From Hawksworthiomyces lignivorus (lineage: Eukaryota > Ascomycota > Sordariomycetes > Ophiostomatales > Ophiostomataceae), in the NCBI GenBank assembly GCA_002917075.1, contig NTMA01000090.1, positions 106,317 to 170,316 of the forward strand: a stretch of DNA of 64,000 bases, given 5' to 3'. Within the stretch, counting starts at the first letter, position 1. Each line of letters opens with the position of its first letter. Position numbers and translations under genes: made by a program. The notes under the pieces are model-generated. The model was not told where the DNA came from. It did not search any database and was given only the letters and a program-made list of their open reading frames with translations. This document shows positions 16,041 to 62,340 of the stretch, piece by piece.

Positions 16041-16465
16041 ACATTATGATTTGTCTCCTGTAACTATATATCTCCGCTTGGAACCGCTGTTCACGTTCAA
16101 GCTCGAGGTGAATAGACTAACAATGCCATAGAACCGTGTTTATAGTCCCACTTTGATAGGTTAAAACAAACGTATAAAAATCATTCCACAAAATGAAAGC
16201 TTACTTGATCATCCGTTCTTTGCTCTTCTTGCTACTATTGCCGGTCTCATTCATTTTCCCACTTGATCATGCTCCTCCGGTCCGCCTTCTACCACCGGAT
16301 TACCGAGTTACCGGCAGCGGCTACACATCACCTCATCACTATCAAGATTTATCACGATTGCTGCTGTAATATTAAACTAAATACACTTAAAATTTTGTTG
16401 CGAGAAAGTATCTAATCCTATCATCTGCGTTCTTGTCAAATCCTTTGTATACTCTAGGTACTACC
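16041..16465. promoter_or_regulatory. cyclase-gene promoter region
   Basis: About 425 bp. It holds the CGG-N4-CCG site at 16,296 and several other CCGG/CGG triplets between 16,275 and 16,320, so it could bind a Zn2Cys6 protein at more than one position. Confidence 0.5.
16296..16305. promoter_or_regulatory. CGG-N4-CCG site (CGGATTACCG)
   Basis: Inverted CGG triplets 4 bp apart, 161 bp upstream of the cyclase-family start codon. The identical 10-mer lies upstream of SDR 2 (32,096). Candidate binding site for a cluster Zn2Cys6 dimer. Confidence 0.65.
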
Positions 16466-17710
16466 ATGTCGTCCACATCTCTATCGCGGCCAGATTATGA
16501 TTCGCTTCCCTTTCACCCCGAAGCAAAAAAGAGGTCATGCTGGGGCTTATGGGATAAGAATGGCGAGCTAGATCATCGTGGGGGTATGAGTAAAGTCGTC
16601 CCAAATCTATGTGGCCGGTCAAACTAAACCCGCTGGTAGCATTGAACAATATTACACCAACAGCTCGAATCACAGCTGCTCGAGAGGTTACACATGGCCT
16701 GTCATTCCCCTTGGACTGGTCTTATTCGAATATCGGAGCGCCACCGTTTGGCCGCTCAGGACTTAAACACAAGATTATTAACTACCTGCCTATAACAGGG
16801 GAGATGGCACACGATGATGAGGTGTCGCTCAACACGCAGTGTGGTTCACAATGGGACGGTTACATGCACTACGCCGACCAGAGTATCGGCTGTTACTACA
16901 ATGGCCTAAAGCACTCTGAACTAGTTGCTTTCGGTCCAGATGCGCATGGAATAGATTGTGGGTATAGTAGCTCCTTATTCCCGAACCGTAGATACAGGCA
17001 CTTACTGACAGAAACAACTCCTAGACTGGTGCAAAGAAGGGATAACTGGGCGGGGTGTCCTGCTTGACTGGCCGAGATGGTTGGAAAGTACCGGACGAGA
17101 CGCGATTTCGGCGGATTGTTCATATGGTGAAAATGACCTTCCGAATTTCTCAGCATAATCTCTGTTCACAAGTAAGACTTAACTAATCATCTTCTCCTAG
17201 CCATTCCCGTGGAAGACTTGCAGGAAGTTGCGCGCCATCAAGGAGTCATCTTCAAGGAAGGAGATATTCTCATCATACGCACGGGCTTTATCAAGTGGTT
17301 TGAATCCACTTCTGCGGATGCTAGAGCCGATGTCTTCGACCGCCTTGCATTCACCGGCGTCAAACAAGGCGAGGACACCCAACGATGGCTATGGAACGAA
17401 GGATTTGCAGCTGTTGCCGGAGATAGTGTTAGCTGGGAATGTAAGCTACGTCATTGATATTCATTAAGCCTAGAGACCTGTACGCAAGAAGGCTGACCTC
17501 CATGCAGGCTTTCCTCCACCAAACGACGGCAGTATGCTTCACCAATGGCTACTTCCACACGCAGGAATACCCATTGGGGAGATGTGGAATCTGGAGAAAC
17601 TAGCAGATGCCTGTTCAAAAGTCGGGAGATGGACATTCCTCCTAACTTCAGCGCCTCTTAACATCAAAGGCGGTATTGCAAGTCCTCCTAATGCAATTGC
17701 ATTACTGTAA
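16466..17710 (+). CDS. cyclase-family (kynurenine formamidase-like) metal hydrolase
   Basis: Five exons (16466-16583, 16640-16957, 17025-17126, 17201-17440, 17508-17710) give 326 aa. The fold is that of the Mn/Zn-dependent cyclase family (Pfam cyclase, PF04199). ALNNITPTARITAARE leads into the domain. QWDGYMHYADQ supplies the metal-binding Asp/His set in the fungal version of HxGTHxDxPxH. GRGVLLDWPRW follows, and the C-terminal ASPPNAIALL is typical. Members hydrolyse amides or open/close ring acyl groups in aromatic and alicyclic degradation. Here it could open a ring diketone or lactone produced by the BVMO/SDR steps (inference). It has a CGG-N4-CCG site 161 bp upstream. No targeting signal. 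Confidence 0.9.
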
Positions 17711-18379
17711 CTCTGTCGAATAGCTGTCGCTACACATTATAAACAACTGGCCTCGGCAAAAGAAAGCTTTTAATTTTATGTGCTTCCAAGTCTCTGAATA
17801 TACGCAAATTATAACTAATTTAACGAGTAGCGGTGTTAATGTGATGCTTTGCTACAGAAATTCACCAAGATTGGCTTTCTTTCATATGCCCTAAACAGTT
17901 AAAGCCTCTTAAACTGTGCTATTCTCCCTGGGGTACCAGCCGGTGAATGCCTTTCCGTGCATCCTACAGTGTGACGAAGGCTGATAGCAACGTAGGTAGA
18001 TCTTGTTATCTCTTTCGATGTGTTCAACGATTCATACAGAGCGCTACCTTTCCTAGCGAGAGTCAAGTCCTCAATGAAGTCATTCCTTGTTGGAGGACAC
18101 CGATCGCGAGGATTTGTTTTGGAGCTGTTTGGAGGACTAACGAACATTTTCACAATTTGGCTTCTGGAAGGGCGTGTGGAGATTTCGTATTGACGGTAGA
18201 ATGTGCGCTGCCAGCGAAGCAGTTGTTAAGTAGCTGGACCTCATGTACAAAGACGAGAAACGGAGTACATCGGGCTTCGTGGAAGAGTAGTGAGTTGTTG
18301 TCTGAAGCTATTCTGCCCTCCCGCACTGTCTTGAAACCATACAAAAAGGGGAATCAGCAGAGGCGGTGGCAAGGCTCTG
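17711..18379. other. intergenic, possibly decayed LINE sequence
   Basis: About 670 bp between the cyclase gene and the recognisable LINE 3' end. An open frame runs through from 17,947 into the LINE part, but I could not match its first 130 codons to anything. Confidence 0.35.
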
Positions 18380-18990
18380 ACGGGGATCTACGGCAGCCCG
18401 CCTGCCTTGACCCGCGCTGGGCCCCCAAGGCGACTCTTCAAGCACACAACCACTTCACCAAAGCCGAAAGCAGCATCCTTACACAGTTTCGTACGGGACA
18501 CATTGGCCTCGCAGCCTTCTTACGCCAACGACGCCTCAGAGACTCCCCACCTGCGCCTGCGGCGACGAGGACGAAACAGTAGAACACGTACTTCTTCGCT
18601 GCCCCCGGGGGTGAACAAGCCTCCCAACTGGCCACAGACACCAGAAGAGCTATATAACAGGCTATACACAGGAGGCGTGGCCGCTAGACCTATCTTCCAT
18701 TGGTTCAAACGCAGCGGACGAATCCTAGACTACTGCTTAGCCGCCAGGCTGGAAGAAAACAACACACAGGAAACAACAGAGGAGGCCCCGACGACAGCTG
18801 AGAAGGCGGCAAAGGCCGCAATGGAGGCTGCGGAGGCGGCAGACACTGTATCAGAGGAGGCCGCCAGGGCGGAAGCAAGGGCAGAGCCGGAAGAGGTGGA
18901 GGTGGCAGAGGTGAGAGAGGCCTTAGCAAGGCTGTGAGGAGAGCCACAGAGAAGGCAGGAGGGCCAAGCGGGCCAACAATACACACACAC
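18380..18990 (+). mobile_element. Tad-type LINE retrotransposon 3' end, relic
   Basis: Conceptual reading on the plus strand shows the C-terminal end of a fungal non-LTR retrotransposon ORF2: FTKAESSILTQFRTGHIGLA, then (after a frame change) CACGDEDETVEHVLLRCP, the CxCG...H...C motif, then TGGVAARPIFHWFKRSG. At least one frameshift and in-frame stops separate the parts, so it is dead. The Ala/Glu-rich tail after 18,760 is low complexity. No reverse-transcriptase domain remains in the window. It separates the kinase-hydratase-SDR-cyclase block from the AtuA-BVMO block. Confidence 0.75.
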
Positions 18991-20028
18991 ATCACTGTAA
19001 TCTAATTCCTTATTTGTTCGCTATATCCTTTAGTACTATAGCGGTTTCTGCGCCGGGAGGATTCCGTTAGCTTAGGCGTCACATAGCCAGGAGTGGCTGA
19101 GAATAAAGACGATGAAACCTAAAAGGGGAGCCAAACTTTTTCTTCTTTTTACTAGACAGGCTAGGCAGGCACGACAATACACACTTTCTGAAGATATACG
19201 GCTCCCGATCAGAGTACAGACTATTCTTTAGAACAAAAACGAGGTCAATTAGCTGCGAACTGATTGTGAACTGAAAAAGGCCTCTGGCCACAAGGCAGAG
19301 GCTGACCCGGCCTCAAGGCTGCTGTAGTCTCACCACATAACTCAGCCGTCTATGCAACAAGGGAGGTTGTCTTGTGCTCTCTCCTTACGGAGAGAGCCAT
19401 TCAATGTCCAGATCAGAGCTTTAAAGGTAGTCGGGGGTGATGCCGGTGAGTTGTGGTGGTTTTGGTGGCTAGGTAGAGTCGTGGGGTCAGCCCGTCTCGC
19501 TCTCAGTATCATTACAGCCGGTAATTCATCTCCGGCACACTAGACGGCTTACGACTCAAACTTCCGTTCCAAGACGACACATGTCTGGTTGTCTCGGTAG
19601 CGGCCCATACATAACATTCCATATGTTTGGTCTACTTGGATTTTGCTTTATTCATACCTGAGCTCTATATATGTTTTAGTTCTACCTATCATAGTACCTT
19701 CCTCGTGTCGCTTCAGCTTAACCCCCTAGGGATCAATACTAATGACTGGCCGAGCTACCTGCAGTAGGAGCGAGACGCCGGAAAGCCGAGACTAAGAAAA
19801 ACGCTCTGCAGATAAAACAAAGAGACTATGCTAACAATAGGCGGGATATTTATGGTGAAGAAAATCAGATAATATACCAACAGGTATCATTATTTCATGT
19901 CCTGTGTCTGAAGCCTTCATATCGTCGTACCATATCCGTTTGAGTGTTCTGTAATCCCTAGGAGGATTTCGTGAAGCTTGTTCGGAGAAGTGCCCTTTCA
20001 CTGGCTAGTAATTTATAGCGAATCGACC
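18991..20028. other. spacer and AtuA-gene promoter
   Basis: About 1 kb. The first part may still be LINE 3' UTR. The rest holds no gene. The CGG-N4-CCG site at 19,779 is the only feature I can support. Confidence 0.45.
19779..19788. promoter_or_regulatory. CGG-N4-CCG site (CGGAAAGCCG)
   Basis: Inverted CGG triplets 4 bp apart, 241 bp upstream of the AtuA-family start codon. Confidence 0.6.
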
Positions 20029-22117: not shown

Positions 22118-23015
22118 GATTCGGAATTAGATACTCTGGAATCCATGTCATAGAGATATAAATTGTCATTTTTTGTTGTTTGCTTACCCATTAAATAAGG
22201 CAGCAGGCCTAATACCGACCCGCCACTCAGTAGTAAGGCACTCATACTTTAAGTGATCACAAAGATAACCTCCATAGCTTTCGTCGAATAAACACTAGCG
22301 GCGAACGAAATAAATCAACATACGTTTTCCTAGTGGGTAACGTATTTTCTTAGAGGAGCTACAATCTAAGCACACCTTTTGCAGCGAAATTCTGACATGG
22401 CACTGATCAACTATGTAGATATCGGTGCGTGTACTATAGCTTCAACCCCAGAGCGCAGATTTGAACAATTTTTGCCTTGGTTTCTGGAAGAAGTATCGCT
22501 TAGAGTGAATTATTTTCGAGAAATGTGGCAATAATGCGTAGCCAACCATATACTGAGTGTCCGATATAGTTCACAAACCCATAACTCACCATCAATATCA
22601 TCAAGTTTGATGATGTCAGCACCAAATTATCTAAAGTGCTTTAGGACAACAGACCTCCACGACTATCTTCGTAGCTCGTAATCACAGTGTAGTGTTTTGA
22701 TTTAGGGCATGCGGGGTTTTGCAAGGCGTCTGTCCGGAGAGCCGTCGGAGCATGCCTACCGTACCGAAGTGCCGGTCTGATCATGGACTAGGTAAAAGGA
22801 AGGGAGGTAAGATAAATATATTATGTAAGAACTTCATTAAACCTTTGTCAAGGACAGATTTTTTTCTTACTGACGCGTTGATAACTCCCTGCACCACTTG
22901 TATAGCTGGATTCCCAAACGCATTCCCGTTAAAAGTTGTGAATAAATCATATACGAAACAACCAACACGCACAATACTACGTACTACATACCTAGGTAAT
23001 CGCCAAACATCCACA
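22118..23015. promoter_or_regulatory. spacer and BVMO 1 promoter
   Basis: About 900 bp, no gene. It contains the CGG-N4-CCG site at 22,735. An open frame from 22,719 runs into BVMO 1, but the family N-terminus starts at the ATG at 23,016. Confidence 0.5.
22735..22744. promoter_or_regulatory. CGG-N4-CCG site (CGGAGAGCCG)
   Basis: Inverted CGG triplets 4 bp apart, 272 bp upstream of the BVMO 1 start; another CGG follows 2 bp later. Confidence 0.55.
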
Positions 23016-25181: not shown

Positions 25182-25314
25182 GATAGTTACAGCATATAGC
25201 AATATATAGACAGTTTATACAGAAGTATAGCTATTTAATGTACCTACTTAGAATTATGTCCTCCGTATATGACGTCCCGCTAGTATGCAGCTCCACCTTA
25301 AGCAGCACGGCCTG

Positions 25315-25492
25315 TGTCAAGCCGGGTTGAGTAGAGCCATTGATTAGGAGAGGCGAAAAGGATATCCTAAAGGGAGACAGGGCGAGGAGCCCTCTCCATA
25401 TAGTGCTATATACAGTGTATCACCTCGGTATTTAAGTGATAGGCATACGGTATCAACCTACAGGCATTGCATTATATAAGCACTGCTCAACA
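25315..25492 (-). mobile_element. solo-LTR-like element, copy 2
   Basis: 178 bp, TG...CA ends (minus-strand sense), perfect 5-bp target duplication GCCTG at 25310-25314 and 25493-25497. It lies in the short gap between the 3' ends of BVMO 1 and the convergent acyl-CoA ligase gene. Confidence 0.85.
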
Positions 25493-27508: not shown

Positions 27509-27914
27509 TTTGACTTGAATTTCGGTGTGCCTTTCGGTGTTTGTATGGAATAATTTTGTAACCTGCGAGAGTTCTGGCGATCTACGAAACAAACCTAGGA
27601 CCCTGGGATGCCCATGGCATAATGCGAAGAGCTCAGAGTAAAAGCGTGTTTCTCACATCGCCCGTCAGGAAAGGGGAAGAGGAAAGCACAGATTAATTTA
27701 TTGCGCAGCACAGAGCACCTCGGCGGTGGTGCTGGTGGAATTGGGCATCGGCAATTCGGATCTCCGCACTTGATTCTTTCGCACAACCCGACTAGGCTTG
27801 CTAGATATTAACTCACGAAGAACCGAGCAGCATCGGAACAATGAAAACACAAAAAGCTCTTACGCAATTTATTTAAAAAGAAGCAAAAGACAGTCAACAC
27901 AAATCAAAAAAGCT
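27509..27914. promoter_or_regulatory. divergent promoter, ligase / BVMO 2
   Basis: 406 bp bidirectional promoter. The only recognised element is the CGG-N4-CCG site at 27,757, 249 bp from the ligase start and 149 bp from the BVMO 2 start. Confidence 0.65.
27757..27766. promoter_or_regulatory. CGG-N4-CCG site (CGGATCTCCG)
   Basis: Inverted CGG triplets 4 bp apart inside the divergent ligase/BVMO 2 promoter, so one site could serve both genes. Confidence 0.65.
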
Positions 27915-31915: not shown

Positions 31916-32511
31916 TTTCTGCTAGATTTTTTTCTTTTGCGTTCCGATATCGCTGGTACCGATTGGCATGTCACCACTAAAGGTGGTGTATTAGTACCTT
32001 CATTTACAGGGAGTACTGAAGTAGCACACCGGAATGCCGACAAATCAGACATAACTTAGGCCCGGGTCCGTGCGACTCGGTCAGCACGGATTTGCCGGAT
32101 TACCGCGCCCCACGGGAGGAAAAAGTTACTCGTCTCATCCCATCGAATTTTCCCATTGGTACGCCAGTCCCAACCAAAGACGGCATTCTGGCAGCCTCGT
32201 TACTGGTTTGATGTTGTAAAGCCCACCACTTACGCCGGTCGCGTGCCAGCTGAAGGCTCTCTGTGCTTGAATTCTTGTCTACCCGATCCAATAGCGGCGA
32301 AATTCCCCAGATCCACGTTATATACTACATGCTTCACCAAATGTGATGCAGCATCCTGGTAGTCAAGGAAGACCTAGTATTCGACCAAAGATATATACGC
32401 ACATGAACTTCAAATCCGATTTTCAACCACGCGCTCTACCTTGGATCAATTCCACCCTCTCCTCGAGTCTCTTTTTCAGTTACCATAATCATAATTTCAC
32501 CCGTCGCTCAA
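31916..32511. promoter_or_regulatory. divergent promoter, SDR 2 / TF1
   Basis: 596 bp. It contains CGGATTACCG at 32,096, preceded 10 bp upstream by CGGATTTGCCG (N5 spacing). The cluster regulator gene itself may therefore be controlled through this region. Confidence 0.6.
32096..32105. promoter_or_regulatory. CGG-N4-CCG site (CGGATTACCG)
   Basis: Identical to the 10-mer upstream of the cyclase gene. It is 181 bp from the SDR 2 start and 407 bp from the TF1 start. Confidence 0.65.
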
Positions 32512-35367
32512 ATGCCTTGTCCATCTTACGACAGCGTCCCTTCTCATCCTAAACGAACAAGGCCTCGCGCCACAAGAGCCTGTATGTCATGTAGACTGAG
32601 AAAAGTTCGCTGCGACGTCTCTATTCGAGGGACTCCATGCATGAACTGCTATCTGGATGAACGCCGGTGTTTTGTCAAGCAACGTGCATCTCCACGGTAC
32701 GTAAGGTCGCCTCCGTAGAAGCATCATGAACTGATGCAAGAGACTCCACTTAGTGCACGTTCGAAATCCTCGACCGCATTCGGCAATTCTCCATCCGGTT
32801 CAGACGTGTCTCAATTTCATCTAACACAAACGATTTCTTCCAGCAGTATGGGCCAGAGTGTTTTTCAACTCCCAGACCCAACTCAGCCGTTATTTGATGC
32901 ACCAAAGACTGATATATGCCAACTCAAAAACCCAAAGCCATTCTGTGCCCTCGAAAGCCAAGTGAGAATTATTGAAGAGGGTCATATGGCAAGTCAATGC
33001 AGTAATGAAAACAGCAACCAGCGCTCTACGTCAGAAAAGAGCGATCAATGTCTTGATCAAACATTGCCGCAACCACCGTTTCAGGCGTATCCCGGCCAAT
33101 TGGTACCATACACGACGTACAATTTTGTATCTCTCAGCAACATTTCTGGATTAAGTTGCCAAGATATCTCCTTTCTTGATGAACAAGGCTGCTTTCGACT
33201 TCCCTCGGAATCAGTTCTAGATAAGTGTCTTCGGCACTATTTTCTTTACGTCCATCCTCTCCTGCCGTTGTTTGACGAAGGGGACTTTTGGGAATGCTGT
33301 CGACAAACGGAGGAAATAGCGAATCCTAAGAGAAAGATTTCGTTGTTAGTCCTCCAAGCTCTACTCTTTGCGGCAACCAGCGTGAGTTATCTTTACATGT
33401 AGTTGTCCATTTATCATATATCGTTCAGCTGACCGAATCATAGTTCGTACCTCTAGACGTTCTCAGTTCTCTCGGATACCAAGACACCAGATCCGCGAGA
33501 GCCGGTCTTCACCGGAAAACTAAGGTTAGTGGTTATTTTGACTGTCATTCGGCGCCTGGCTGACTAGAGACTACATTGTACGTTTAGCTTCTGTTCGACT
33601 TGGAGACAGAATCGTCAGCGGTGTCCATCGCTCAGGCCACGTTGCTCCTATCCTTTTGGTCCCCCGACGTCTCATATGGCACCAAATTGGAGAACACCAA
33701 ATGGCTCAGGATTGCAATCGAGCATGCAAAAGTAGCCGAGGCCCACCGCATCTCCTCCGATTCACTACTCTCCACGGAAAGTCCTAGTATGTTGAAAAGG
33801 CTCTGGTGGTGTTGCATTATTCGCGACCGCATCCTCTCACTATGCTGCCGGCGTAGTCCCCTCATTTCGCCTACTGATTTCGACATCGCTACCTATCCGG
33901 CCCTAGAGTACGATGACATGGCTAGCGAAATTGACCGCAGCGTGGTGTACAACTATGGCACGAAGCGGAGACTCGTGGAAATTCTTGTCAAGGTCACCGA
34001 GTTCTGCAAGATCTTGACCAACGTACTTCTTTTGGTCTACCCACAGGATGATGCGCGGAACTTCGACCGAGAACGTGTGACAAAAGAAGTCCAGCAAATT
34101 GCCGACTGTAGGCTGCTTCTCTGTGCGTGGAGTCAGCATGCTAACCCTCGCTTATTCTTGGCTATGGGTGGCGAGGGCGAGACGGAAGGTAACGTTTCAA
34201 ACTTTAAGTTTGAACATGAGTCTGAGGCTCTATTTACCAACCTCACATGCCTATACTACCAGTGAGTTTGTTTCCCGATGTGGGGTAGTCAGTGCGATTT
34301 ATTTATCTGGTCTCGACGTCTAGTTGCTTTACGTCTGTTATTATTAGTCTTCGTGAACGAACTGACAACGGCATGCCAGCACCGCTCGTGTAGCACTCTC
34401 TCATCACGAAATTCTCTTAGCCACAAACCATTCTCCTCATCCGGCTCTCCCGGTGAATATATTGGGATATGAGATCACGAAGATCTTCGAGGCCCGCTGT
34501 GAGCTTGAAGATGCTATATCAGCTTTAACTGACACGTTCCAAACCTTGATGCGTCGAGGGCTGGTTCATCAGCTACCAGTCAGCGCTGTTGCATGCGCTG
34601 CGGTGCCGTTGGTTCTGCATGTTTTGAGCGCCAAGCTGTCCTGCGCTGGCGGATCTCCATATTCTCGATATTGTTCAATGCAAATATCGTCTGACAAACT
34701 GCGCGGCCACGAACAACACAAGCTCAGCACTATATTCCAGGTCATGACAATATTTTGCAAGCAGTACCAGTCTGCAGACTTTGTGGCCCGTACAGCGCGA
34801 TATATAATCGGCTTGGCAAAACTTGACGAGCCCTTACACGCCGGTGCAGTCGGCAGCGGCGGCAGCTCCAAGATTGACTGGACTGATCTGCTTCTGCTAC
34901 GGCCAGCATGCTATCTAAGACTGATTTTGAGCATGGACTTGAGCCTCAGTAAGCATAGGCTCTCTGAAGAATGTGACTTTCCCGTCAATCTGAGGGGCCA
35001 GTTCGATACGGGCGTCAGCTTGATTTGCATCTTGTTGGATCATAATGCAGTCAAAGTACAGAACGGCGGAGCATCATCCACTGATGACGACAGCCACGAG
35101 TCACCGTCGATGCAATCAAATCAGTCCCTACCCCAGATGGAGTCACGGGAGCCCGGCGACGATACGAAAAGCTGGTTCGACACCATTAGTACAGATATGT
35201 TGGTGGATTTCCGGCCCTTGTCAGGGAATGAGGCTGTAGGAGGCAGCATATTCGGCCTAGAAAATGATGCGGATTCATCACTTGATTATTTCTCACCATA
35301 CTTGACTTTTATGGGAGACACTGAAGGTACTCTTTTCGAATTATCTCCAGGCAACAATAACCTTTGA
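32512..35367 (+). CDS. TF1, Zn2Cys6 fungal transcription factor
   Basis: Five exons (32512-32700, 32743-33381, 33444-33524, 33588-34261, 34380-35367) give 856 aa. The N-terminal binuclear zinc cluster is ACMSCRLRKVRCD...CMNCYLDERRC, preceded by basic residues (KRTRPRATR). The fungal-specific middle homology region follows: LRHYFLYVHPLLPLFDEGDF, LLLSFWSPD, RLWWCCIIRDR. The C-terminal PVSAVACAAVPLVLHVLS block is typical of this class. It is a nuclear DNA-binding regulator; zinc-cluster dimers commonly bind CGG triplets, matching the sites found across the window. Odd point: intron 1 as drawn is only 42 bp (32701-32742) and, if it is not removed, a TAG at 32716 would truncate the protein after the zinc cluster. 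Confidence 0.88.
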
Positions 35368-35714: not shown

Positions 35715-38700
35715 CTACACACTCTGCTCTTTTTTTTGTTGGACTAGCAAACGAGCCGCACGAGAAAAGAATGCTAGGAAATGCGTCTGGTGGATATCCG
35801 ACACGAGCGGATGTGGCATGTCGGCCCCGTGGACCGTTGATTCTACAACCATAGACATGAGTTCCAGGTGAGATGCAGATTTAGGGTCGGTTGGCTGATG
35901 AAGTACTGCAATGAACAATACATGGAATGCATACACTGGTAAGGTCAATATATGCCTTACGGCAGGTTAGCCGAGATCATAAGAGCATGCAGACGGGTAG
36001 ACACTCAGAGGGTGCTCACGAACCAGAAATAATTGGGTCGGCGGTGAGGCACTGCAAACACGATCTTGATCAAGTTCTCTGCGGCTTCGCTAGCAATAGC
36101 TAGATCCTGAGCAAGCGAATGACTCGGTTGGGACAAACTAGCTTTGCCAAGCCTGAACTGTTTCATTTGGTAGGCGGTCTTCAGGACTATTGGCCGCAGC
36201 CGGATAATCCAAGTCGCCGCCATTAGTTCGCAAAACAATGTAACAACCGGCAGGACGGTCGCTTCTGGTATTACCAAGAGCTTGGCGGCAAAGGACCCCG
36301 GGCCTGCCAGTACATCTAGCTCGGGACATGCGCCGAGTTTCGCGATCTAAAACACTTTAGTACGACTGAATGGATCTATAGTTGAAGTCAAATGCAGCAC
36401 AAACTTTCATCTCGAGCTCTTGGATCTGTGGAACAAGATCAGCCATGTTGAGGTCATTTAATGTATAATCATGGACATCCAGAAGCAAATAAGATATCTC
36501 AATGTTTCGTTTAAACAGGCGTCTTAACAACGCTGCATCTGAAGTGCCACCAGAACCATGGGTTTGAAGGTTCGAGAAGGCGCTGTTGAGGATAGCGTCG
36601 CTAGGAAGTCGTAGGGAAATAACTTCTCGTCGAAGGAAGGGAGGTCGTCCAAGACGGATGATAAGTTCTTGATATTTACTTGTCAGTAGTCTATCCTGAT
36701 GTTAAAGACAATCAATATAGTAGACTGGGACAACTATACGGGCATCCAGGCAGAACAGGGACCAAAACACCAAGCTGCGTTGGCTAATATCCTCCTCAGA
36801 GAGCTGCCACGATCGCTCCTGTTGTACGTGGAGACCTAAGGCGTAGCTTTCAGACACGGCGCAGCTCAAGAAAGTGCATCCCCATTGAGGTGACGTTGTG
36901 TGGCTGAGGAACACATGCTATGCGGCTTTTGTGTTAGCAAACAGAAATGTCTCCTAATAAGGGGGGAAAAGATGCTTCTTGTACGCTGGATGGAATGTGT
37001 GTGGAGTGGACAGATATTGCGACGTTCGGCTTACCATTAAGATCAATGTCTGGACCTTCCGCAGACATCCCGTTGCCAAGATCACTTTTTGTAGCAGACT
37101 GAGAGCATTGGTGAAGAGAGCACAGCATTCAGTTTCGCTCCCAATAGGGCTAGCCCTACACCCTATTGCTAGAACGACGTTTACCAGAGTACACCACACC
37201 GGTTCGTCTGAGGGCATAAGAGCGTCGTATGTTGCGGTGAATTTATGGAGAAACTCTTCCCGGCTGAGAATTGGAAATGCACTGCGACACTATAATTAGC
37301 TAGACGCATTGTAAGCAAATGGGATTCCGCATTCACCATTGTACAGATGTGAAATATGCTAATTTTCAACTCTCGTAATTAGCCAGATAAAACTGAACGT
37401 TTCAAGACTTGAGGCAGATTACCATTGACATAGGATAAAGCCGTATCGGATGAAGGCAGAACGAAGAAGTCGTAGCTCTGGTCTGCGTGGAGGGCCGGAT
37501 TGATCGGCGTCCACTTACGGAGAAAGGTGTCAAGCTGCTCTGATACGTAGCTGGATCCGGTGACCTCGGTGATCCACTCTTGCCCGAGCTTTGTAGCAGG
37601 GATATACTACAGAAGCCAATATAATTAGAATGCAATCGTTTTTCCTTTTGGCTCGAAGATACACCAAACATGCTCCATCACGGAGTGTGCTATGACCACT
37701 GCGCCGGACACTTTTTCTTACCGACATGCTGGGCCCTTCACTTTAGTGTTAATTAAATATCACCCGTAGATACATTGGAACTGATCATTACCTAGGTATT
37801 TCATATATCCATCCAGGGACGTTTGTAGGCTATGGCCAATGTCGTCTTCCGGGTCCACACTGAAGTCCGCCTCGTGCTCTGAAGGCTGATGCAGCGGATG
37901 ATCGAGTCCATTTGAGCCGCTTAATGCAAGGGCTGGTGTCTGACTGGGCCTAAGACCGTCTTCATCTCGCAACTGAGTATCCAGCATATCCGTAAAGTCA
38001 GAGGTCTCCGGTGGAACTGAATGCGCGAACAAGAAGATGGATGGGCTGACACCATCTATTAAGTCATAGGAAGAATCATTCAGGCCCACCACGTCCTGCA
38101 TTCTGTCCCTATGGTCATAATTAAAGTCTTCCAGCAGACCAGTAACGTTTTCTTGGAGAGCAATATCGACACTATCCTGTTGGCTGTCGTTGGGCGCTAC
38201 ATGTATGGTCTCAACGTTGCCAGATTCGCAATCATTTGACCCAGAGGCTGTGGATGAGTTGTCCGGCGTGCGAGGCATTGCATGCTGAGAAATTGAAGTC
38301 TCAACATCTATGCGCGCAATGAGAAATGTTAGAAATTTGACGGAAAATATTCACTCGCGGTACTAACATACTCGGAGCGTTGGCACCTATGCTGGTGAGG
38401 CTTCCCGCACATGAGCAAATTGGGTGCCGTCTCTGCAAAACTTGATGTCTGCTTTCTTTCCTCTTTTCCGCTCCTGCTCGTGGAGCTCGAGGAAGGTAGA
38501 TACATTCGGACTTGTGAATAAGACACTGGGAACATGTTGGTTGACGCGCATCGCCTGCGGGCTAATCATCAATCGACCATTCTGTTCCCCGAGAATGACG
38601 AGGAAAGCGTATGGAACGCAGTTGTACACAAGACTCACAGCGAACTTTTTTCTTATGACAGAGCCTGCATGCTCTGGGGGTCCGCCTACAGAGAGAGATG

Positions 38701-38789
38701 CGTCAGCAAGGTATGCTAGAATCAGGGACAGATGATACATGTCCAACCAACCTCTGAACCCAGTCCTCAGAGTCAGCCGAGCGATCCAT
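35715..38789 (-). CDS. TF2, Zn2Cys6 fungal transcription factor, 12 exons
   Basis: Exons on the minus strand: 38789-38752, 38685-38639, 38554-38387, 38307-37792, 37735-37722, 37606-37423, 37358-37337, 37281-37035, 36917-36735, 36695-36405, 36346-36024, 35955-35715; 757 aa with every junction in frame. The zinc cluster is built from two exons: ACRLCHKKKVRC, then TCSQCLIHKSECIY. A 14-nt micro-exon supplies the GPS of LGPSMSY. Middle homology region: YFTSVQCAFPILSREEF, MHVFLSHTTSPQWGCTF, LVFWSLFCLDARID, IIRLGRPPFL. It is a nuclear regulator and, with TF1, the likely reader of the CGG-N4-CCG sites. The longest open frame in this region (38387-39208) is a shadow of exons 2-3. It is convergent with TF1. 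Confidence 0.85.
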
Positions 38790-42518: not shown

Positions 42519-42847
42519 CGTGTGGCAATGAATTGGCAATGTGACAATTAAGGCTGGGTTTGTTGTTGTTCTTGGGCAGGAGAAATGTAAGTGAGTTGGT
42601 CCTTATGATTTCGAGGTTTCTCATATTACTTGACGGAGCCGAATTGCCGGGAATTTGAAGCATGTCTAAATACCCGATTTACCAATGGCCTTTCCCCCCA
42701 GTTCCTAGTCTATTTCTCAGTGCATATAGTCGTCTTCAAGCATCAACTCTATCATTGCCCGAATAATCTATCTATGCAGCCCCGATATCATACATTCTCT
42801 CAATCCTGCCTACAATTCCTTCGACAGACCCCACGGGAGGTTAAATC
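42519..42847. promoter_or_regulatory. divergent promoter, hydrolase / SDR 3
   Basis: 329 bp. It contains CGGAGCCG (N2) and further CGG/CCG triplets near 42,634-42,652, but no N4 site. Confidence 0.45.
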
Positions 42848-43657: not shown

Positions 43658-44429
43658 TGAGGTTGAGACTTATTATAGAGCTGGCAAAAATAGTTTCTCA
43701 AATCTCCTATTTCAGATCCGCTACCAGAAGTCAGCACCTAGACGTCCATAACATAATGTCAAGTTGCAGAGGCTCTTAGATGTCATCTTACTCCCGCTGA
43801 AAGGTGACGTACTGCTCTGGAAAATACAAAATATGTCGCCACAGAGGTTTCCTACCGCGTGACATCACACGTATTAAGACGGTGACCTGGTAGCTCAGGT
43901 AGATACCGCTAACTGAAGCCCTTTTAAGTGATAGCCACATAGCGGTATGAGTCAAAAGCTTCGCCTCCTGTTAGGTATATTCCAGCTAAAAATTGCAGCG
44001 CACAGGCTAGTTAGTAATCAGTGGAAGTAGGTCATCCCACACAACACTATCAGCACTATCAGCTTCATCCAACCACATAAACGAACCCCCAACTAATTAG
44101 AATATTAGCGGCCCCGAACTTTCTACACCTGTGTTTCAATGGTTGTGGTACATTTCTGTAGTACAGCTTTACCGCAAACCTCCCGTTCCGAAATGCCGGA
44201 GTTATGCATGCGGTCTAGGATATCTGCCGGAATTCCGGTGTTAGCAATCCATGTTAATCAGCATAGGCCAAATATCTTTGACGCCAAACACATATTAGCA
44301 GTTCCACAACTACAATATTTCGGAACTTGTTCTATAAAAAAAAAAGTCGGTTTCTATCTCTTCATTACCCCTTCCATTATTCAAATCTTTGATTACCTAA
44401 CTACATGCAAAGAAGGAACTGTTGTCAAA
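43658..44429. promoter_or_regulatory. spacer and P450 promoter
   Basis: About 770 bp. CGGAATTCCG lies at 44,228, with several further CCG/CGG triplets at 44,172-44,212. An open frame from 44,139 runs into the P450 but lacks a membrane anchor in that part, so the ATG at 44,430 is chosen. Confidence 0.5.
44228..44237. promoter_or_regulatory. CGG-N4-CCG site (CGGAATTCCG)
   Basis: Perfectly palindromic version of the shared site, 193 bp upstream of the P450 start codon. Confidence 0.65.
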
Positions 44430-46542: not shown

Positions 46543-48760
46543 ACCAAGACGGTCTTCAGCAAGGTTACAAAGATAAAACGCGGCACTCTCAATTCGTAAC
46601 AGAAGCCGAAGGGAAGACAAAGAGGCTATGAAAAATGCTGAGATATATAAGGGATTTTATAGAGGCGACTATATTGGATTCTACACAGGCACAAGTTCAT
46701 TTTACGCGTAGAAAGCCGACGATATGTCTATCTCCTTTATACGTGTTCGAGGTTGTTTACTACTTTACATTTAGAAATAAGAATTTTTCCTGCATACCCG
46801 AAGGTGTGTTCAACCGTGGTGTGCTGCAATGAATTTTATATTGCCTACGTCAGAAAACTTTCCCACGATACATCTCAAATTTTTCCCTTTCCCAGATGCC
46901 CAATGTTGGCCTCGAAAAGGTAAGAAATTGTCAGATTACTAGGGCCCGGGTCAGAATGCAGTGATATAGGCCTGCAAGACCTAAAAAGGAAGTTGAAACT
47001 AGAAAAATAGAGATAGAGAAGGTCATCTACTAGGCATTGTGTACCTGTAATCATCTTGTTTTGTTCTGCTATCTCTGTGCGTAGTTCGCGTTTATTACTA
47101 CGCAAACCCCAACGGCACATGAAAGCCACCCGAGACTTTGGCTAACTTAATGGCTCGCCTCATACGGCGATGGCTCAAGTAGATCGAGCATATTCCAGAT
47201 TATTGATTGGCAGGCCGACTCTATGAGGATATACAATGGGCGTAGCCTCAAGCATCACTAGGTAGTTCACAATACTTCCTTTCCTCTACCTACTACCTAC
47301 TTCTTTACATATATTGGCCCATCTCGTATCATCGTCTCTTTATTTAATTAGGCGATAGTTTTTGCCTAGAGGGTTCTGTTGAACTATGCTGAATAGGCCC
47401 TAGTGCCAGGTAAAAGAATACTCCCCTACCTAAGCGCAGATCGGGTATATAGAGGGCTCATAGTAACTCAACAGATTCTTCCTACTATGGAGGTACAAGG
47501 AAGTGAAGATTGATTAATAAATACAATTGAAAACTATTCCCTACTTAAGCGCGAACCATTATTACTATGACGTCTAGTGTGGATATTAGTACGGTCGTAC
47601 TCTCAGATGTTAGATAATTACGGTGCAATTTCTTTAGAGAATTCCCATAAATTTTGTGGCAGTGTCGGCTGAACCTTAAGCCGGCCGATTCTCTAGACTT
47701 CTGTCCCACACTAGACCGCAAAAGTCCCTTTACACAAATTGTCGCCCTTTGAGGAGAACCTGGATACGGCATTTCGGCACTCCGGTATTTGCTGGCGTCG
47801 ACTACATCGTCATACCGTCACCAGCGACGGAAATCTCCACATTCCACACCTGGGTTAAAGGAGCGAAGTCACGGGTGCGACGTAATCTTTGATCCGTTAG
47901 GTCCCAATAGTCTGGGGCTGTTCAGCCCCAAACTCTCCGTACAATTAATGTAACTATAGTTTCATGACTTGGTGCCCTATCAGACGACCATGGATGGGTG
48001 CGTCTATGTGGGTTGCTTCGTCGTGAATAATGTTATTAATGACAAGCCGATTCGACTGCAGTTTGGATCTAGATCTTTCTAGCCTCAGCAGCCGTATTAC
48101 ACGATGCGTTACCGGTGCTACTCCGAACAACTTCCTCTATGGTATATATTATCGTAGTAGAAGTGCGGCTATGCCTATATAGCACTGGTATGCAATAACT
48201 ACATGTTGTTATTAATATGCAGCCAATCTTCAAGGACGTGGATTAGAGCTGTTTAAAATCTAAGTTCGATGTGGCTATTGAAATAGTACGTCTTTCTAGA
48301 AATCCACTATACAGTTTTTCACAAACTCATATAGCCAATAACCACAAAAAGATGTCTCATGGTATAGTAGCATCTTGGCATACATTGGCACACCATGTCT
48401 ACTCCAGTAGCTTCGGGGAGAGCTAATAGTCCGTAACATCGCCTAACCAGGTCTAGACTAGACTAGCTAGATATTTCCCCAGAACGTCCTTTACCCCAGG
48501 TCTTGGCATGGTTCAGAAGGCCACGTTAAATTACCGGATTTCCGGATTGTAGAAGAAATAATGAAATGTCATCCGGGAATTTGTATAGACTTAGTGTAGG
48601 AACGAGTACAAGGCGTTATATAAGGGTTACGAGGGATCTATCATTAGTGACCTTATGTATTCTATCAAGGACAACATTCCTATCAATCGAGAGCACCTCA
48701 CATATTACGTCTCTTCGTCGAATTTTCTCGCGGTCAAGATTACGGCAGGACGGAGCCAGA
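46543..48760. other. 2.2-kb intergenic region before the MFS gene
   Basis: No gene or repeat recognised apart from the CGG-N4-CCG site at 48,535. Several short open frames, all without family resemblance. Confidence 0.5.
48535..48544. promoter_or_regulatory. CGG-N4-CCG site (CGGATTTCCG)
   Basis: 217 bp upstream of the MFS transporter start codon; a further CGG follows at once (CCGGATTTCCGG core). Confidence 0.65.
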
Positions 48761-50727: not shown

Positions 50728-51846
50728 ATAAAGTGGGTCGACAAATACTGTCAGTTTCCCCTAATGGTGCACTAACGCGCGGACCAAGGAGTGACTCGCT
50801 GACAAATACTAAGGACACGTCATTACTCTCGCCATTCACGTGTCTGGTTCACTACTGTTGAGTTCAGGTGAGCAGATTGTTAAAGGAGAGATAACTGTGC
50901 CTACGGTAGTCTGTGGCTAAACCTTTTAGTAAGGGGTAGTCACAGTGTGATATATACAGTAAATGAGTGTAATTCATACAGTGTTCAACTACTAAATATA
51001 AGTTTCACCAAACTGATCATGTACTTGTTCCATCTAATATCCACAAGGATAAGGTTCATAACATTCAACTTCATATAGCGTCGTGTAACGCAAGGTGTAC
51101 TGGATAGGGTGAAGATCAAAGGGCCATAAGAGCATATTGATAACAGTGCATATACCTACTGATTAAAACTGAATCTTATGTAAGTAATCGTAACTCGTAC
51201 ATGATTCACGCAATATGCTAGAATAACAGCCCTGAGGATTTACAGTGGGCCACATTAGTATATGTGGCCATCTTGCTAGAATATGCGACTCTCACTGTGT
51301 CCCTGTGGATATCCTTCTGGTATGCGGTTACAACAGGAGGGCGCTTGTGGTGTAGCAACCGAAACGCCAAACAATATACCCTTGTATTTCACTACCAATC
51401 CTATTCTTGACCAACAGGGTAACATCGCACGTTAATAGCATTCTGACGCTTCATCGGTGGCTCCTCGACTCAACTAACCAATATAACCACCACAACCTCA
51501 CAGCTAAAGTTAGCAATAGTATAGAGCCACGCCAAACATTACCAACGCCATACGGGTGCGTTCTGAAGGAGTATTGTCCTCCCTTTGTCATAAAGGTGGC
51601 TTCGCAGCTGGATCAGTGCTTGGCTTCGTCAATTTTAGTCTCGTCAATGCTCAATCAAATATGTCACAAGTAGCCTTCATTGAAAGGACTATTTGGTTTG
51701 AAAGGACTATTTGGTTTGCTAGAAACTGTCCATCGGTATCTATGTAAAAGTACATGTTGCAAGCTATCCGGTGTAAAAAGCGAAGAGTCCGTGATCCCCT
51801 TTTTATTGTGGCAGCAGGCAGAAATTACGAGTTGTGAATTGTAATA
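50728..51846. other. intergenic, no gene seen
   Basis: About 1.1 kb. Only a short direct repeat (GAAAGGACTATTTGGTTT twice, 51,678-51,713). No coding sequence supported. Confidence 0.5.
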
Positions 51847-53596: not shown

Positions 53597-54617
53597 GGTT
53601 AACTCTCTGAATGCCACTGTTTTCTAACACGGCGATACAAGTCGAATGACATACTGCTCAATTGACCTGTGGCATATTTAGGTGGAATTTAAAGCTTATA
53701 GTGATCAGTTAGCTTGCCACAATCGACCGAAAAGCCGGCACCCCACAGCACACCCTTTTCCAGTCAAATACAAATTATCTTTCTTTTGAAAGGAGGACTA
53801 TTACATCTTATAATTATCAACCTTAGCCATTGCTGAGACAATAGAATATCCATAATAGCTACGATCTATAAGAACAGGCTGGACTTTATAGAACCAACTG
53901 AACAAAAAAAATTACTTAATTTAATAAGAGGATTATTAGAGATGGCAAGCCAACTTAAATAACTGCAATAAATTAAGGAAAATAGTATAAATTAGCAAAA
54001 AAAGATATGTTCATAATATATTATTTTGGAGTTAACCTATTACCTTACATAGTCGTACATTAAAACCTTTTTCTTATATAAGGTGTGCTTCTATGCATAC
54101 TCCTTCTTTCAGCTGTACATATTTATGTATTCACACAGTTATTTTTTCCTATTATGTTTGACCGCCTTTTTCCAGTCTATTATTTAGGCCTCGTGTGGGA
54201 GTTGAATTCCAAGATAAAGCATTATAACAAAAAAATCAAGTTTTTTAAAACATCGACCGTGAAAGATAAATATGGATCTTCCATCGTATTATGCGCATAG
54301 AATTTCAACGTACGAAGACTTTGTAGCGAAAATCAGTTGTTAGGCTAGTTGTTCAACAACATGTGTGGGGCGGCTCACAGTCCCCGAAGCCGGCATCTCG
54401 GCCGTTTATGATGGTGGCGAGAGGGCAACTCCGGATAACCAGATAGACACTAAATAGTAACAAGACGTGACACCAGTAATATGACTTATTGTAGGTGAAG
54501 TCCAATTTTATGTTTTTGCAAACCATCAATTGTAACCACTAGCCTTGATCCTTCACCTTCATCGAGCATCTTCACATTCAATCCCAACACGTCATTGCTT
54601 GTTCCACCTTAGGCATC
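53597..54617. promoter_or_regulatory. divergent promoter, NmrA-like / BVMO 3
   Basis: About 1 kb, AT-rich in the middle. It contains CGGATAACCA at 54,432 (one mismatch to CGG-N4-CCG, 177 bp upstream of BVMO 3) and CGGCATCTCGGCCG near 54,391. Confidence 0.4.
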
Positions 54618-56564: not shown

Positions 56565-57302
56565 TGTCTCTATAGAACTTTACTACATTTCTATTCACAG
56601 TGCACCTAAGCAGTCAGGCAGCTAGATGACAAAGAGGCCTGGGGACATTTAAATTTACTACTATGCCATAAGTAGTCATTTGAGTGAAAGCCGGGCCACA
56701 TCTTTCACTATTTTTGTCTCCCATTGCATAGCAACTGCTTGTGTCGGCAAACATATGTCCGTAACCTTTCACCAGACGAGCGTACTTTCGATCATAACAA
56801 ACTGCACTGCACCACAAGTCACGACACAATCGTCATCTGGTTAACCGATAGAATTTCCTCCAACATTTTAAGATTCAGTAATTAGCTGTACAGGTTGCCG
56901 GCATTGAGGTTCGCCGCTATCCATACGAACTAAGACATATAGATATTGAGTAACCACATGCAGATAGTCTTATTGGGAGGTATTCGAGGCCGCACCTACT
57001 GTTAGTGTGTTGTTGGGGGAGGGAAGGAGGGGATCAAATTTGCCTTTCGACCTATTTGGGCTGTGGATGCCGACTTGCCGAACACGATTTGATACAACTA
57101 TCAAGTACATTGCCCCAAACCGAAGAGCCGTGAGCACATTCATCACAACAATTTAAGTTGTGGGTGAGCGTATCATGCTAGTGCTGAGCCATTAAGTAAC
57201 GCAATCAGTATCTTGAGACATCCTACAGTTGCCTCATTATCATATGCTTTTCTAATTCACTACTGAAAACCCCTGTGAAATATTCTAAACTATTTATTAG
57301 CC
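56565..57302. promoter_or_regulatory. spacer and BVMO 4 promoter
   Basis: About 740 bp with no gene and no full CGG-N4-CCG site. Nothing else recognised. Confidence 0.45.
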
Positions 57303-59609: not shown

Positions 59610-59690
59610 CATGTAAAACCACATTTATTGTCTTGTCTCAGTAGCCCATCTACATAGCGGGTTCGCATGGTCCCAAAAATGTTTATGTTC

Positions 59691-59870
59691 TGTTGAGCAG
59701 TGCTTATATAATACCATACCTGTAGGTTGATACCGTATGCCTATCACTTGAATACCGTGGTGATACACTGTATATAGCACTATATAAGAGAGGGCTCCTC
59801 GCCCTGCCTCCCTCTAGGATATCTCTTTTGGCCTCTCCTAATCAATGGCTCTACTCAAACTGACTTGACA
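59691..59870 (+). mobile_element. solo-LTR-like element, copy 4
   Basis: 180 bp, TGTTGAGCAG...CTTGACA, perfect 5-bp target duplication TGTTC (59686-59690 and 59871-59875). It sits between the 3' ends of BVMO 4 and the esterase. Confidence 0.87.
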
Positions 59871-60015
59871 TGTTCCTCATTCATATCATCACCCTTCCAA
59901 AATTGAATTCACGAGACAGCAACGTCTACTTTCCAAAGGTATCACCCGTCATTGTGGGAAGTTAGCAATACCAATCTAGAAAGCTTGTTTCAAAGCGACG
60001 GTCACCTCACGGCTA

Positions 60016-61533
60016 TCATACAGTATCTGCAAGTTTCTTGTACGAAGCCGCGATAAACCTATCATTCGCCTTTAGGGCCAAAGTGTCCGCATACGTCAAA
60101 ACCGAGGAGACCATTGCTCCAGCCACTCCCTTTTCTAAGTCCACCCACTAATGACGACAATTTAGTACGAATTAATGCACATAGCCCATCGGTGGGATAA
60201 CCGAGGTCACAGACATTGAAGAAATCACTTACCCAGTAACAGTTAGGAAACCCACTCCATTGAATACTGCCGGGGCTGATCCCCGTATCAAGCTCGTCCA
60301 GGTTGATCAAAACCCCGAGGCCAAAATTCTTACGCTTGTGCACAGGGACCTGCGCCGTGATATTGAGGTTCTGATCGGCTGTCATACGTGCCACTCGCTC
60401 CTCTAGGAATCGAGAAGTAACCAGCGCGGGCTTTGCAATCTCCTGGATAGACTCGGGTGACAGTATCTGTGGGCCGCTATTTGCAAGGAACACACCATGA
60501 AGGAGCATGCAGAGATCATTGGCGGTGCTCCAGAGGCCACCGCCGCCGTTGTGGTTGCCGGAGCGTGCATAAGGAGTTCCAGAATTCTGTGCAAGCTTGA
60601 GGGAACCGTCTTCCTGGCGGAAGTGGGTTCCGGTAAGTCTGTTGGAGAAATTCGGGTCGTTAAGAGGGTTGAATGTCGTGTTTAGCAGCCCCAGTGGCTG
60701 AAATATGTGCTTCTCAAAGTACTCTCCGAGCGTGATGTTTCCGTTCAATCGTGATATCTGTGATGGTATTCTTAACAACAATCTTTGGAAAACTAAAAAG
60801 TCATAATTGAACGGTAGCTTACCAGATGTCCCATCCAGTCCATTCCTACGGAATAAGTCCATCCTTCACCCGGGGAGAAGACCATTGGGTACAAAAGGTC
60901 TTCCTACCGTTTGAAAACAACCATTAGCAAGCGATGATGAGTGAGCACAGTTAACAGCAAGAAAGGGAAACACACAAGATTTCCCGATTGAGAATTAGTT
61001 TCCTTGTGCTTGTACTGGTTCCAGCGAATCAAATCTGGCTCGGAGATGTCCACTCCAATACCACTCTGGTGGCTCAGGATCTCTCGAATAGTAGGTAATC
61101 TCTTCGGCTTACCGAGGATAGGGCTGCCGTCCTCAGCCCATCCTTTAAGTAGAGGCAGATCCTTGAGTTCGGGGAGGACATTGGTGGGAACAGTGTCCAG
61201 CGTGATCAGACCGCGTTCGACACACTGCATCACTGCAATGGTCACGCATATCTTGGTACACGAAGCCACCCAGAAGACAGTGTTTTCGTCTACCTCCAAG
61301 TCGTCCTGGCCGAGGAATCTCTTTCCGTTAGCTGCGTTGTAAAGAGTTTCACCTTTACGAGAAATGATCAGTAGTTATTACATATGAAAAACAGTCTAGG
61401 TTACTCTTAGAATACCACGAGTAATTTGATTACAGTTTCCCTTACCTTTTCTATTTACCGACTTGATCTGGAATCCAGGATAGCCATGCGAAGATCCCGT
61501 GACATCCTCAAAAATTGAGTCTAAAGCATTCAT
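60016..61533 (-). CDS. serine beta-lactamase-like esterase (class C / EstB type)
   Basis: Five exons (61533-61446, 61352-60976, 60903-60823, 60757-60233, 60147-60016) give 400 aa. The SxxK motif is ASCTK (nucleophile Ser and general-base Lys). The second motif is YSVGMDW, at the YxN position, and a Gly-rich GNHNGGGGLWSTANDL segment follows. It ends WWVDLEKGVAGAMVSSVL, typical of fungal class-C-like esterases and LovD-type acyltransferases. Such enzymes cleave short esters and lactones or transfer acyl groups; true beta-lactamase activity is unlikely. It is a second candidate for opening BVMO lactones. It has CGGAATGCCG 140 bp upstream. It is the last gene before the telomere; an upstream in-frame ATG (61,590) is possible. 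Confidence 0.88.
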
Positions 61534-62340
61534 TCTGATAGCTTTCACGTAAGTATATCTTTGATTGATTGAAATAAAGGTTTTCTTCAACCATTAATCA
61601 AATTTGTAAACTATTAAGAATTACTTTTCGTCAAAGTATTATATATATCAGTAATATAAAGGTCTTTAAGGCCGGAATGCCGAAATAATTAACAGTTAAA
61701 TTTTATCTTTAAACCCGAGATACCGATTGAAATAAATATTATAAACTAAACCAAAATTATATTTCAATCTATTTTAATATTATTATAAGTATTCATATTT
61801 ATACACGTACGTTTTCCTATTTGTACATAAATTTTCAATGTCTTAGACATTACATTTTTGGGGATTGTTATAATACCATCACTTTTTATTAAAATACTAT
61901 CAAAGTGGGCCTAATAAATGGGCCTGCTGACACATTCGTCCGAAAGATACTTAGTTCGTCTTAGTAAAATGTATTCTTTTCGAAGTAATTAGACGGCCAC
62001 CACTATGGTATCGCCCTCACCATCCCCATCACCATTTTGTTGCTCCTATTATTCAGTCTGTCTATCCATTTCACCTTCAAATTCAGTTGGAATCAGATAA
62101 TCTTCTTCGTTTATAGAGGCATCCTCTAGATTGGCCAGATATCTGTCTGATACTCGTGATGCCACTGTCTGTGAGGGATTAATTTCGTCTTCGGACACTT
62201 CCACTGTCTTTCTCCTCTCCTCTGTCTGAACAATTTCAAACAAACTGGATTCTCTAATCGTACCATTTTTCCCTAAAGGAAGGTAGGACGAAGAGCCTTA
62301 GTAAAATATATATATTGAACCCTATATATGTATAAGAGGT
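61534..62340. other. AT-rich subtelomeric spacer and esterase promoter
   Basis: About 800 bp with long A/T tracts. It holds the CGG-N4-CCG site at 61,673. The small minus-strand frame at 62,049-62,243 (rich in Glu) may belong to the retroelement debris but is not identified. Confidence 0.45.
61673..61682. promoter_or_regulatory. CGG-N4-CCG site (CGGAATGCCG)
   Basis: Inverted CGG triplets 4 bp apart in otherwise AT-rich DNA, 140 bp upstream of the esterase start codon. Confidence 0.6.

Follow-up and report, generated by a model that had tools for sequence, protein, structure and literature searches.

Direct CGG-N5-CGG repeats in the promoters of a Hawksworthiomyces lignivorus gene cluster: a predicted Zn2Cys6 operator

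In Hawksworthiomyces lignivorus, the terminal 64 kb of contig C182 (GenBank NTMA01000090.1; assembly of 43.7 Mb in 191 contigs), referred to here as the window, contains a gene cluster of ~50 kb encoding four BVMOs, AtuA, a P450, SDRs, a CoA ligase, an enoyl-CoA hydratase, a cyclase-family protein, a hydrolase, an esterase and an MFS protein. We found that the promoters of this cluster carry a direct repeat of two CGG half-sites (CGG-N5-CGG, or CCG-N5-CCG when read on the other strand), which occurs in both orientations, in most cases 124-282 bp upstream of the start codon, with the consensus YCGG-C-A-T-T-Y-CGG. As nearly every gene has the same site upstream, one zinc-cluster regulator probably switches on the whole cluster, and two Zn2Cys6 proteins, TF1 and TF2, are encoded within it. 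Taken as a whole, an explanation in which a shared operator is bound by a Zn2Cys6 activator, with TF2 the likelier reader, has in our view a good chance of being correct, and a strong regulon of a known kind is predicted.

The direct repeat in the cluster promoters

Gene models came from a small gene finder of the Markov/splice-site type, for which this contig served as training sequence, and were tied to Pfam domains. Pfam support was obtained for the cyclase-family protein (PF04199), enoyl-CoA hydratase, APH, BVMO1, BVMO3, the hydrolase (Abhydrolase_3), AtuA, CoA ligase, SDR1-3, the sugar-type MFS, the NmrA-like protein, the beta-lactamase-type esterase, catalase and P450. The names BVMO2 and BVMO4 are based on sequence and on matches of BVMO4 to BVMO1-3, and SDR0 is SDR-like by reading alone. 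A total of 21 gene starts was used, namely 20 plus that of APH (start codon at 11,473), which entered once its site had been noticed; the TF2 start codon is at 38,789. Models considered doubtful or outside the cluster (e.g. 543-2249, 4763-5654, 18243-19075 and 50823-51135) were excluded. The window reaches the contig end, hence the cluster may continue past it.

The initial annotation had proposed an inverted CGG-N4-CCG as the site shared by the cluster promoters. A dyad scan was run of all trinucleotide-Nk-trinucleotide combinations (k 0-20, strands merged, 39,420 dyads) across 15 merged promoter regions of 400 bp, from enoyl-CoA hydratase to the esterase, a set fixed before the scan and excluding SDR0 and catalase. 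The direct repeat CCG-N5-CCG ranks first of the 39,420 dyads, with 23 strand hits in 14 of 15 regions compared to 1.9-2.9 expected (P 9e-14). CGG-N4-CCG comes eighth (P 9e-5 before correction for the number of dyads), and several of the dyads ranked between the two (CGA-N4-CCG, CGG-N3-TCC, CCG-N3-TGC and CCG-N4-GCC) are shifted readings of CCG-N5-CCG. With the APH promoter added, which carries the already noticed site at 11,286, there are 24 strand hits in 15 of 16 regions; these correspond to 22 places, as two palindromic sites count on both strands. Direct-repeat counts for N0 to N20 in the cluster promoters peak at N5, being 2, 0, 3, 4, 3, 24, 3, 1, 3, 3, 3, 2, 3, 3, 3, 5, 2, 2, 1, 3 and 2.

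By comparison, CCG-N5-CCG was found in 2 of 23 promoter regions in the adjacent flank (gene models scoring ≥20, one region of <60 bp having been dropped). A region-based P, which is not inflated by palindromes, was 1.7e-13 for the cluster compared to a lowest value of 4.7e-9 in 500 random flank sets, while the lowest occurrence-based P in 100 Markov sets was 1e-7. Among the 21 starts, 18 have a CCG-N5-CCG within 500 bp, compared to 10 for CGG-N4-CCG; the starts with no CCG-N5-CCG in this range are those of TF2, catalase and SDR0, the latter two lying left of the first strict site (see below). Nine starts are without a CGG-N4-CCG (APH, enoyl-CoA hydratase, SDR1, TF2, hydrolase, SDR3, NmrA-like, BVMO3 and BVMO4). 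Their promoters contain 8 direct repeats in 3,271 bp, where 0.79 are expected at the flank rate (P 2e-6), and eight of these starts have a direct repeat 131-233 bp upstream, TF2 alone having none.

Read in the CGG orientation, the aligned sites show a pyrimidine (20/24), CGG, C/T/A, A/T, mostly T/A, mostly T/C, mostly T/C and CGG, the base ahead of the 5' CGG being C in 11, T in 9, A in 3 and G in 1 of the 24 strand hits. Apart from this preceding pyrimidine, no clearly conserved columns are seen outside the site, hence duplicated promoters do not explain the repeat. A strict form of the consensus, CCGRRDWRCCG, occurs 20 times in the window and 978 times in the genome (1.43 per 64 kb), making the window 14x denser. 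None of the 20 strict sites is in a modelled gene body, though these fill 67% of 11.2-61.8 kb, and the strict form is absent from the adjacent 100-kb flank and from 30 kb of contig C16, with a single copy in 20 kb of contig C8. The distance to the nearest start is 124-282 bp for 18 of the 20, the other two forming a triple tandem array ~990 bp before MFS. The tightest form, CCGRAWTGCCG, has 92 copies in the complete genome list, of which 7 are in the window and, by reading, at most two in any other 64-kb stretch. Strict sites span 11,286 to 61,725, the right edge being near the contig end, and the operator thus suggests the extent of the cluster from sequence alone.

A number of results weigh against this reading. 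The raw number of CCG-N5-CCG in the window (43) is close to that in the genome as a whole (27,262 copies, on average 40 per 64 kb), the 100-kb flank with 24 copies being sparser than the genome. At the genome rate, the 8 direct repeats in promoters without CGG-N4-CCG compare with 2.0 expected (P 1e-3), and these promoters are a selected subset of the scanned set that includes the post hoc APH region, and are not independent of it. When occurrences were counted as a control, one or more of 200 random flank sets beat the cluster (best P 1.5e-25; median 5e-6), an extreme that we tentatively attribute to low-complexity sequence. The enrichment of CCGRRDWRCCG is partly circular, since this form was drawn from the very sites being counted; the dyad scan and the spacing profile are less so. 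Finally, all starts were taken from a home-made gene finder, and those of APH and MFS are provisional. The near-average raw count would also suit an origin by chance or composition, with CG-rich promoter patches yielding paired CCGs. Given that these promoters show no excess of direct repeats at any spacing but 5, that the spacer is conserved, and that the strict consensus is so concentrated, we regard such an origin as extremely unlikely.

The individual sites, together with the two regulator genes, are listed in Table 1. The array at 47767-47785 has no gene seen between it and MFS, and could represent a distal site or point to a missing small gene. At 3.8-6.1 kb of the window, two gene models, one short and SDR-like (running downward from 4,165) and one multi-exon with poor support, seem to be outside the regulon as no strict operator is found upstream of either. 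Three CGG-N4-CCG with spacers unlike the cluster consensus lie at 62608-62662, near the contig end.

Table 1 Direct-repeat sites of the cluster and candidate regulator genes (window coordinates; a dot marks sites counted on both strands)
Feature	Position	Strand	Context
CCGAAATGCCG	11286..11296	+	187 bp before APH-family gene (start 11473 provisional)
CCGAAATACCG	13108..13118	+	177 bp before enoyl-CoA hydratase
CCGAGATGCCG	14862..14872	-	159 bp before SDR1
CCGGATTACCGAGTTACCG	16295..16313	+	Triple tandem CCG before cyclase; includes the previously listed 16,296 site
CCGGAAAGCCG	19778..19788	+	251 bp before AtuA
CCGGAGAGCCG	22734..22744	+	282 bp before BVMO1
CCGAAGTGCCG	22764..22774	+	252 bp before BVMO1
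CGG-CAATT-CGG (27749-27759) overlapping CGGATCTCCG (27757-27766)	27749..27766	-	Between ligase and BVMO2
CCGGAATGCCG	32029..32039	+	124 bp before SDR2, 483 bp before TF1
CCGGATTACCG	32095..32105	+	190 bp before SDR2, 417 bp before TF1
TF1	32512..35367	+	Zn2Cys6; zinc cluster 32581-32670; some relatives annotated cutinase transcription factor 1 beta
TF2	36005..38789	-	Gal4-like Zn2Cys6, Zn_clus and Fungal_trans; exon structure and 3' end approximate
CCGAATTGCCG	42639..42649	+	Between hydrolase (131 bp) and SDR3 (209 bp)
CCGAAATGCCG	44188..44198	+	242 bp before P450
CCGGAATTCCGG	44227..44238	.	Palindromic, before P450
CCGGAGTGCCGAAATGCCG	47767..47785	-	Triple tandem CCG array ~990 bp before MFS
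CCGGATTTCCGG	48534..48545	.	~226 bp before MFS (provisional start); departs from strict consensus at last spacer base
CCGTCCTGCCG	48743..48753	-	18 bp before provisional MFS start; CCG-N5-CCG off consensus, probably incidental
CCGAAAAGCCG	53727..53737	+	141 bp before NmrA-like gene
CCGAGATGCCG	54391..54401	-	227 bp before BVMO3
CCGACTTGCCG	57070..57080	+	233 bp before BVMO4; outside strict consensus
CCGAAGAGCCG	57120..57130	+	183 bp before BVMO4
CCGGAATGCCG	61672..61682	+	149 bp before esterase
CCGAGATACCG	61715..61725	+	192 bp before esterase

Overlap of the promoter CGG-N4-CCG sites with the direct repeat

The eight CGG-N4-CCG sites quoted in the initial annotation are all present at the positions given there, and a ninth promoter site, at 32,030, was absent from that list. 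Distances to the nearest modelled ATG were measured as 124-281 bp, slightly wider than the 140-275 bp reported. The claim that the pattern exceeds chance was borne out, with 25 copies in the window compared to 7.0 in dinucleotide shuffles (maximum of 100 shuffles, 20). Nine of the 25 are in cluster-gene promoters, 7 in masked gene bodies and 9 elsewhere, some of these within genes outside the mask. In the neighbouring 100 kb, also on this contig and with the same GC content, there are 7 copies, and the genome has 11,815 in 43.7 Mb (17.3 per 64 kb). In the 500-bp promoters of 18 cluster genes (7,176 bp), the 9 copies compare with 1.9 expected at the genome rate (P 2e-4) and 0.5 at the flank rate (P 4e-9), and every other inverted spacing from N0 to N20 occurs at most 3 times. 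The 16 copies outside cluster promoters are at about the genome average and ~4x the flank rate, so that the flank comparison overstates promoter specificity. The pattern is found upstream of 10 of the 21 starts used (8 promoters), which is fewer than the "most cluster genes" originally put forward.

In the cluster promoters, the inverted geometry is a secondary reading of the direct repeat. Eight of the nine promoter sites have a C ahead of the CGG and are thus CCG-N5-CCG with G as the first spacer base, while the ninth (27,757) has its CGG in common with CGG-CAATT-CGG at 27,749. The direct repeat looked inverted because CCG-N5-CCG with G first in the spacer reads CCGG, and so contains CGG-N4-CCG. 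Over the 24 promoter strand hits the first spacer base is A in 13, G in 10 and T in 1 (G in 8 with the two palindromic places counted once); G is not in excess, given a window A:G ratio of 1.17, and the A variants contain no inverted repeat whatsoever. The reported preference for A after CGG is genuine, with 15 + 6 strand hits of CGGANNNCCG in the window compared to 5.96 per 64 kb genome-wide, and corresponds to the conserved second spacer base of the direct repeat (A in 18/24). Hence, the notion of a shared, position-restricted, CGG-based promoter site stands, with half-sites that are direct at N5 and not inverted triplets at N4. Considering the dyad scan, the spacing profile and the promoters without CGG-N4-CCG, the latter was dropped as the primary element. 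The papers listed for CGG-N4-CCG spellings concern bacteria by title. An overlapping CCGG reading that disguises a direct repeat as an inverted one is a trap for fungal promoter motif calls.

Two alternatives retain a role for the inverted geometry. The first is a dimer on inverted CGG triplets at N4 (CGGA-N3-CCG), reading for example the inverted CGG and CCG within CCGGANNNCCG and setting the outer C aside. It could account for the promoter enrichment of CGG-N4-CCG, and genuine inverted promoter sites do exist at another locus of this genome (contig C16, below). Nevertheless, all nine promoter sites are within or overlap a direct repeat, promoters devoid of the inverted site still carry direct repeats, and the base that would form the inverted CGG is more often A than G; a dimer of this kind is thus very unlikely. 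The second supposes two factors with overlapping sites, one of them reading the direct repeat everywhere and the other an inverted repeat confined to promoters with the G variant (cyclase, AtuA, BVMO1, SDR2/TF1, P450, MFS and esterase). While two Zn2Cys6 genes are available and this subset makes up about half of the promoters, the A:G count of 13:10 (13:8 when places are counted) lies near or above the ratio for the window and gives no sign of separate selection for G, leaving a two-factor arrangement improbable.

Two further loci were compared with the cluster. On contig C8, where the best BVMO4 paralogue lies together with a CoA ligase and NmrA/SDR-like genes, a stretch of 20 kb contains 10 CGG-N4-CCG, none of them ≤500 bp upstream of those modelled genes. 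Contig C16 was chosen for at least several CGGAWWNCCG near a BVMO paralogue. On it, a stretch of 11 kb has three CGGATATCCG (C16:41898, 50281 and 52910), of 28 in the genome, located upstream of an MFS gene, an amidase-like gene and an MFS/regulator pair (names by reading). As no C precedes them, these C16 sites are genuine inverted repeats, and C16 may hold a second small regulon with inverted CGG-N4-CCG geometry. On the same contig, a zinc cluster with the cysteine spacing of TF1 (C16:66457-66546, minus strand) adjoins a BVMO paralogue at C16:67133-69173, forming another BVMO-regulator pair. A genome search with BVMO4 gave 104 exon-level matches over many contigs, its own cluster included, indicating a large BVMO family in this fungus.

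Candidate readers of the repeat and cluster function

The observation that two Zn2Cys6 proteins are encoded inside the region was confirmed by Zn_clus matches of 22.3 bits for TF1 and 39.7 bits for TF2, both above the Pfam cut-off of 21, and a Fungal_trans domain is present in each. The short-loop zinc cluster of TF2, ACRLCHKKKVRCDARQPTCSQCLIHKSECIY, matches those of LAC9, GAL4, HAP1/CYP1 and PPR1 by sequence. TF2 is the sole cluster gene used that lacks a CCG-N5-CCG within 500 bp, hence it is probably expressed independently. Among the best 7,998 candidates by shared words, the TF2 search returned two relatives. One of these, Cylindrodendrum hubeiense G7Z17_g2514 (48% identity over 30% of the approximate TF2 model, among the candidates scored), is four locus tags from G7Z17_g2518, a BVMO1 relative with 81% identity, the contigs given for the two being equal in length (218,994 bp).

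We infer from these features that TF2 is the better candidate for the reader of the repeat, an assignment made with moderate confidence. The synteny is that of two locus tags in a single species and includes a partial match, and TF2 itself has one off-consensus CGG-N5-CGG 640 bp upstream, both of which count against it. Alternatively, TF1 could read the repeat and control its own gene via the two sites shared with SDR2, with TF2 acting elsewhere or upstream. TF1 is located mid-cluster, its divergent promoter with SDR2 carries two sites, and ahead of its Zn2Cys6 domain lies KRTRPRATR, a basic stretch such as TerR (see below) requires. The shared sites lie closer to SDR2 (124-190 bp, within the usual range) than to TF1 (417-483 bp). 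The search with TF1 (best 7,996 candidates by shared words) gave at least 79 relatives, the nine best-scoring being 33-37% identical, and the listed Cylindrodendrum ones are, unlike the TF2 relative, not on a contig with the length of that carrying the BVMO1 relative (the closest, g5076, is on one of 123,330 bp). TF1 as the reader therefore appears rather unlikely.

In the mechanism we propose, the cluster promoters would share one operator of two direct CGG half-sites 5 bp apart, to which a pathway-specific Zn2Cys6 activator would bind to turn the genes on together. TF2, as the likelier reader, would induce the enzymes and perhaps TF1, and CGGCATTTCGG is the predicted target of the TF2 or TF1 DNA-binding domain. 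The operator thereby offers an exact and cheap way to tell which zinc-cluster protein runs the cluster.

The cluster is oxidative and probably catabolic. Its P450, SDRs, four BVMOs, hydrolases, CoA ligase, enoyl-CoA hydratase and AtuA suggest, when combined, that a cyclic alcohol or ketone may be oxidised to a lactone, followed by ring opening and beta-oxidation-like breakdown, and it is from this gene set that we infer the substrate class. BVMO1 has seven relatives with ≥60% identity (in Cylindrodendrum, Fonsecaea, Cosmosporella, Polytolypa, Coniochaeta, Mytilinidion and Sporothrix), the next being at 45%. Among the papers listed on AtuA, BVMOs and fungal or monoterpene clusters, a set that largely excludes subscription journals, no counterpart of this cluster was seen by title or abstract opening. 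A more far-reaching model is put forward tentatively, at somewhat less than even odds. In it, TF2 would be a cluster-travelling Zn2Cys6 activator that is not self-regulated and that acts through one operator type, YCGGCATTYCGG, on every other gene, a subordinate TF1 included, and the cluster would encode an undescribed fungal ring-opening pathway for a cyclic ketone or terpenoid. If true, 18 genes in one place would form a one-operator regulon.

Comparison with known CGG operators

CLR-1/ClrA binds CGGN5CGGNCCG (PMC5468973, PMC6498484, PMC12911045), the CGG-N5-CGG core of which is shared with the present repeat, and the zinc cluster of TF2 equals that of CLR-1 in length, with 14 of 31 residues identical. 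A CLR-1-type triple site was rejected, as the third half-site (CCG at N1) is missing and the window has no full motif. Gal4-type inverted sites (CGGN11CCG and others) share the CGG half-sites and the Zn2Cys6 family, whereas the half-sites found here are direct. The AmyR/InuR site CGGN8CGG (PMC5468973) is likewise a direct CGG repeat at catabolic genes, with a spacer of 8 compared to 5 in this cluster.

The closest resemblance is to the operator of TerR from the A. terreus terrein cluster, a direct repeat TCGGHHWYHCGG (PMC4360782; PMC10512231). The TerR study reports, as data not shown, that sites with a 4-bp spacer or in inverted arrangement are not recognised by TerR (PMC4360782). In both systems, two CGG triplets in direct orientation and 5 bp apart mark the promoters of a single cluster, and the cluster-encoded Gal4-type Zn2Cys6 reader of the terrein cluster has its candidate equivalents in the cluster-encoded TF2 and TF1. 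A TerR-type pattern, CGGHHWYHCGG, fits 19 of the 24 promoter strand hits, and occurs 20 times in the window, once in the 100-kb flank and 1,825 times in the genome (2.7 per 64 kb). Differences are also apparent. The spacer is narrower here (mostly C-A-T/A-T-Y), and where the TerR site has a T before the 5' CGG, this T is found in only 9 of 24 hits, with C or T in 20. The present cluster is oxidative, with no polyketide synthase among the modelled genes. Judged by its site, the putative operator looks like one of TerR type.

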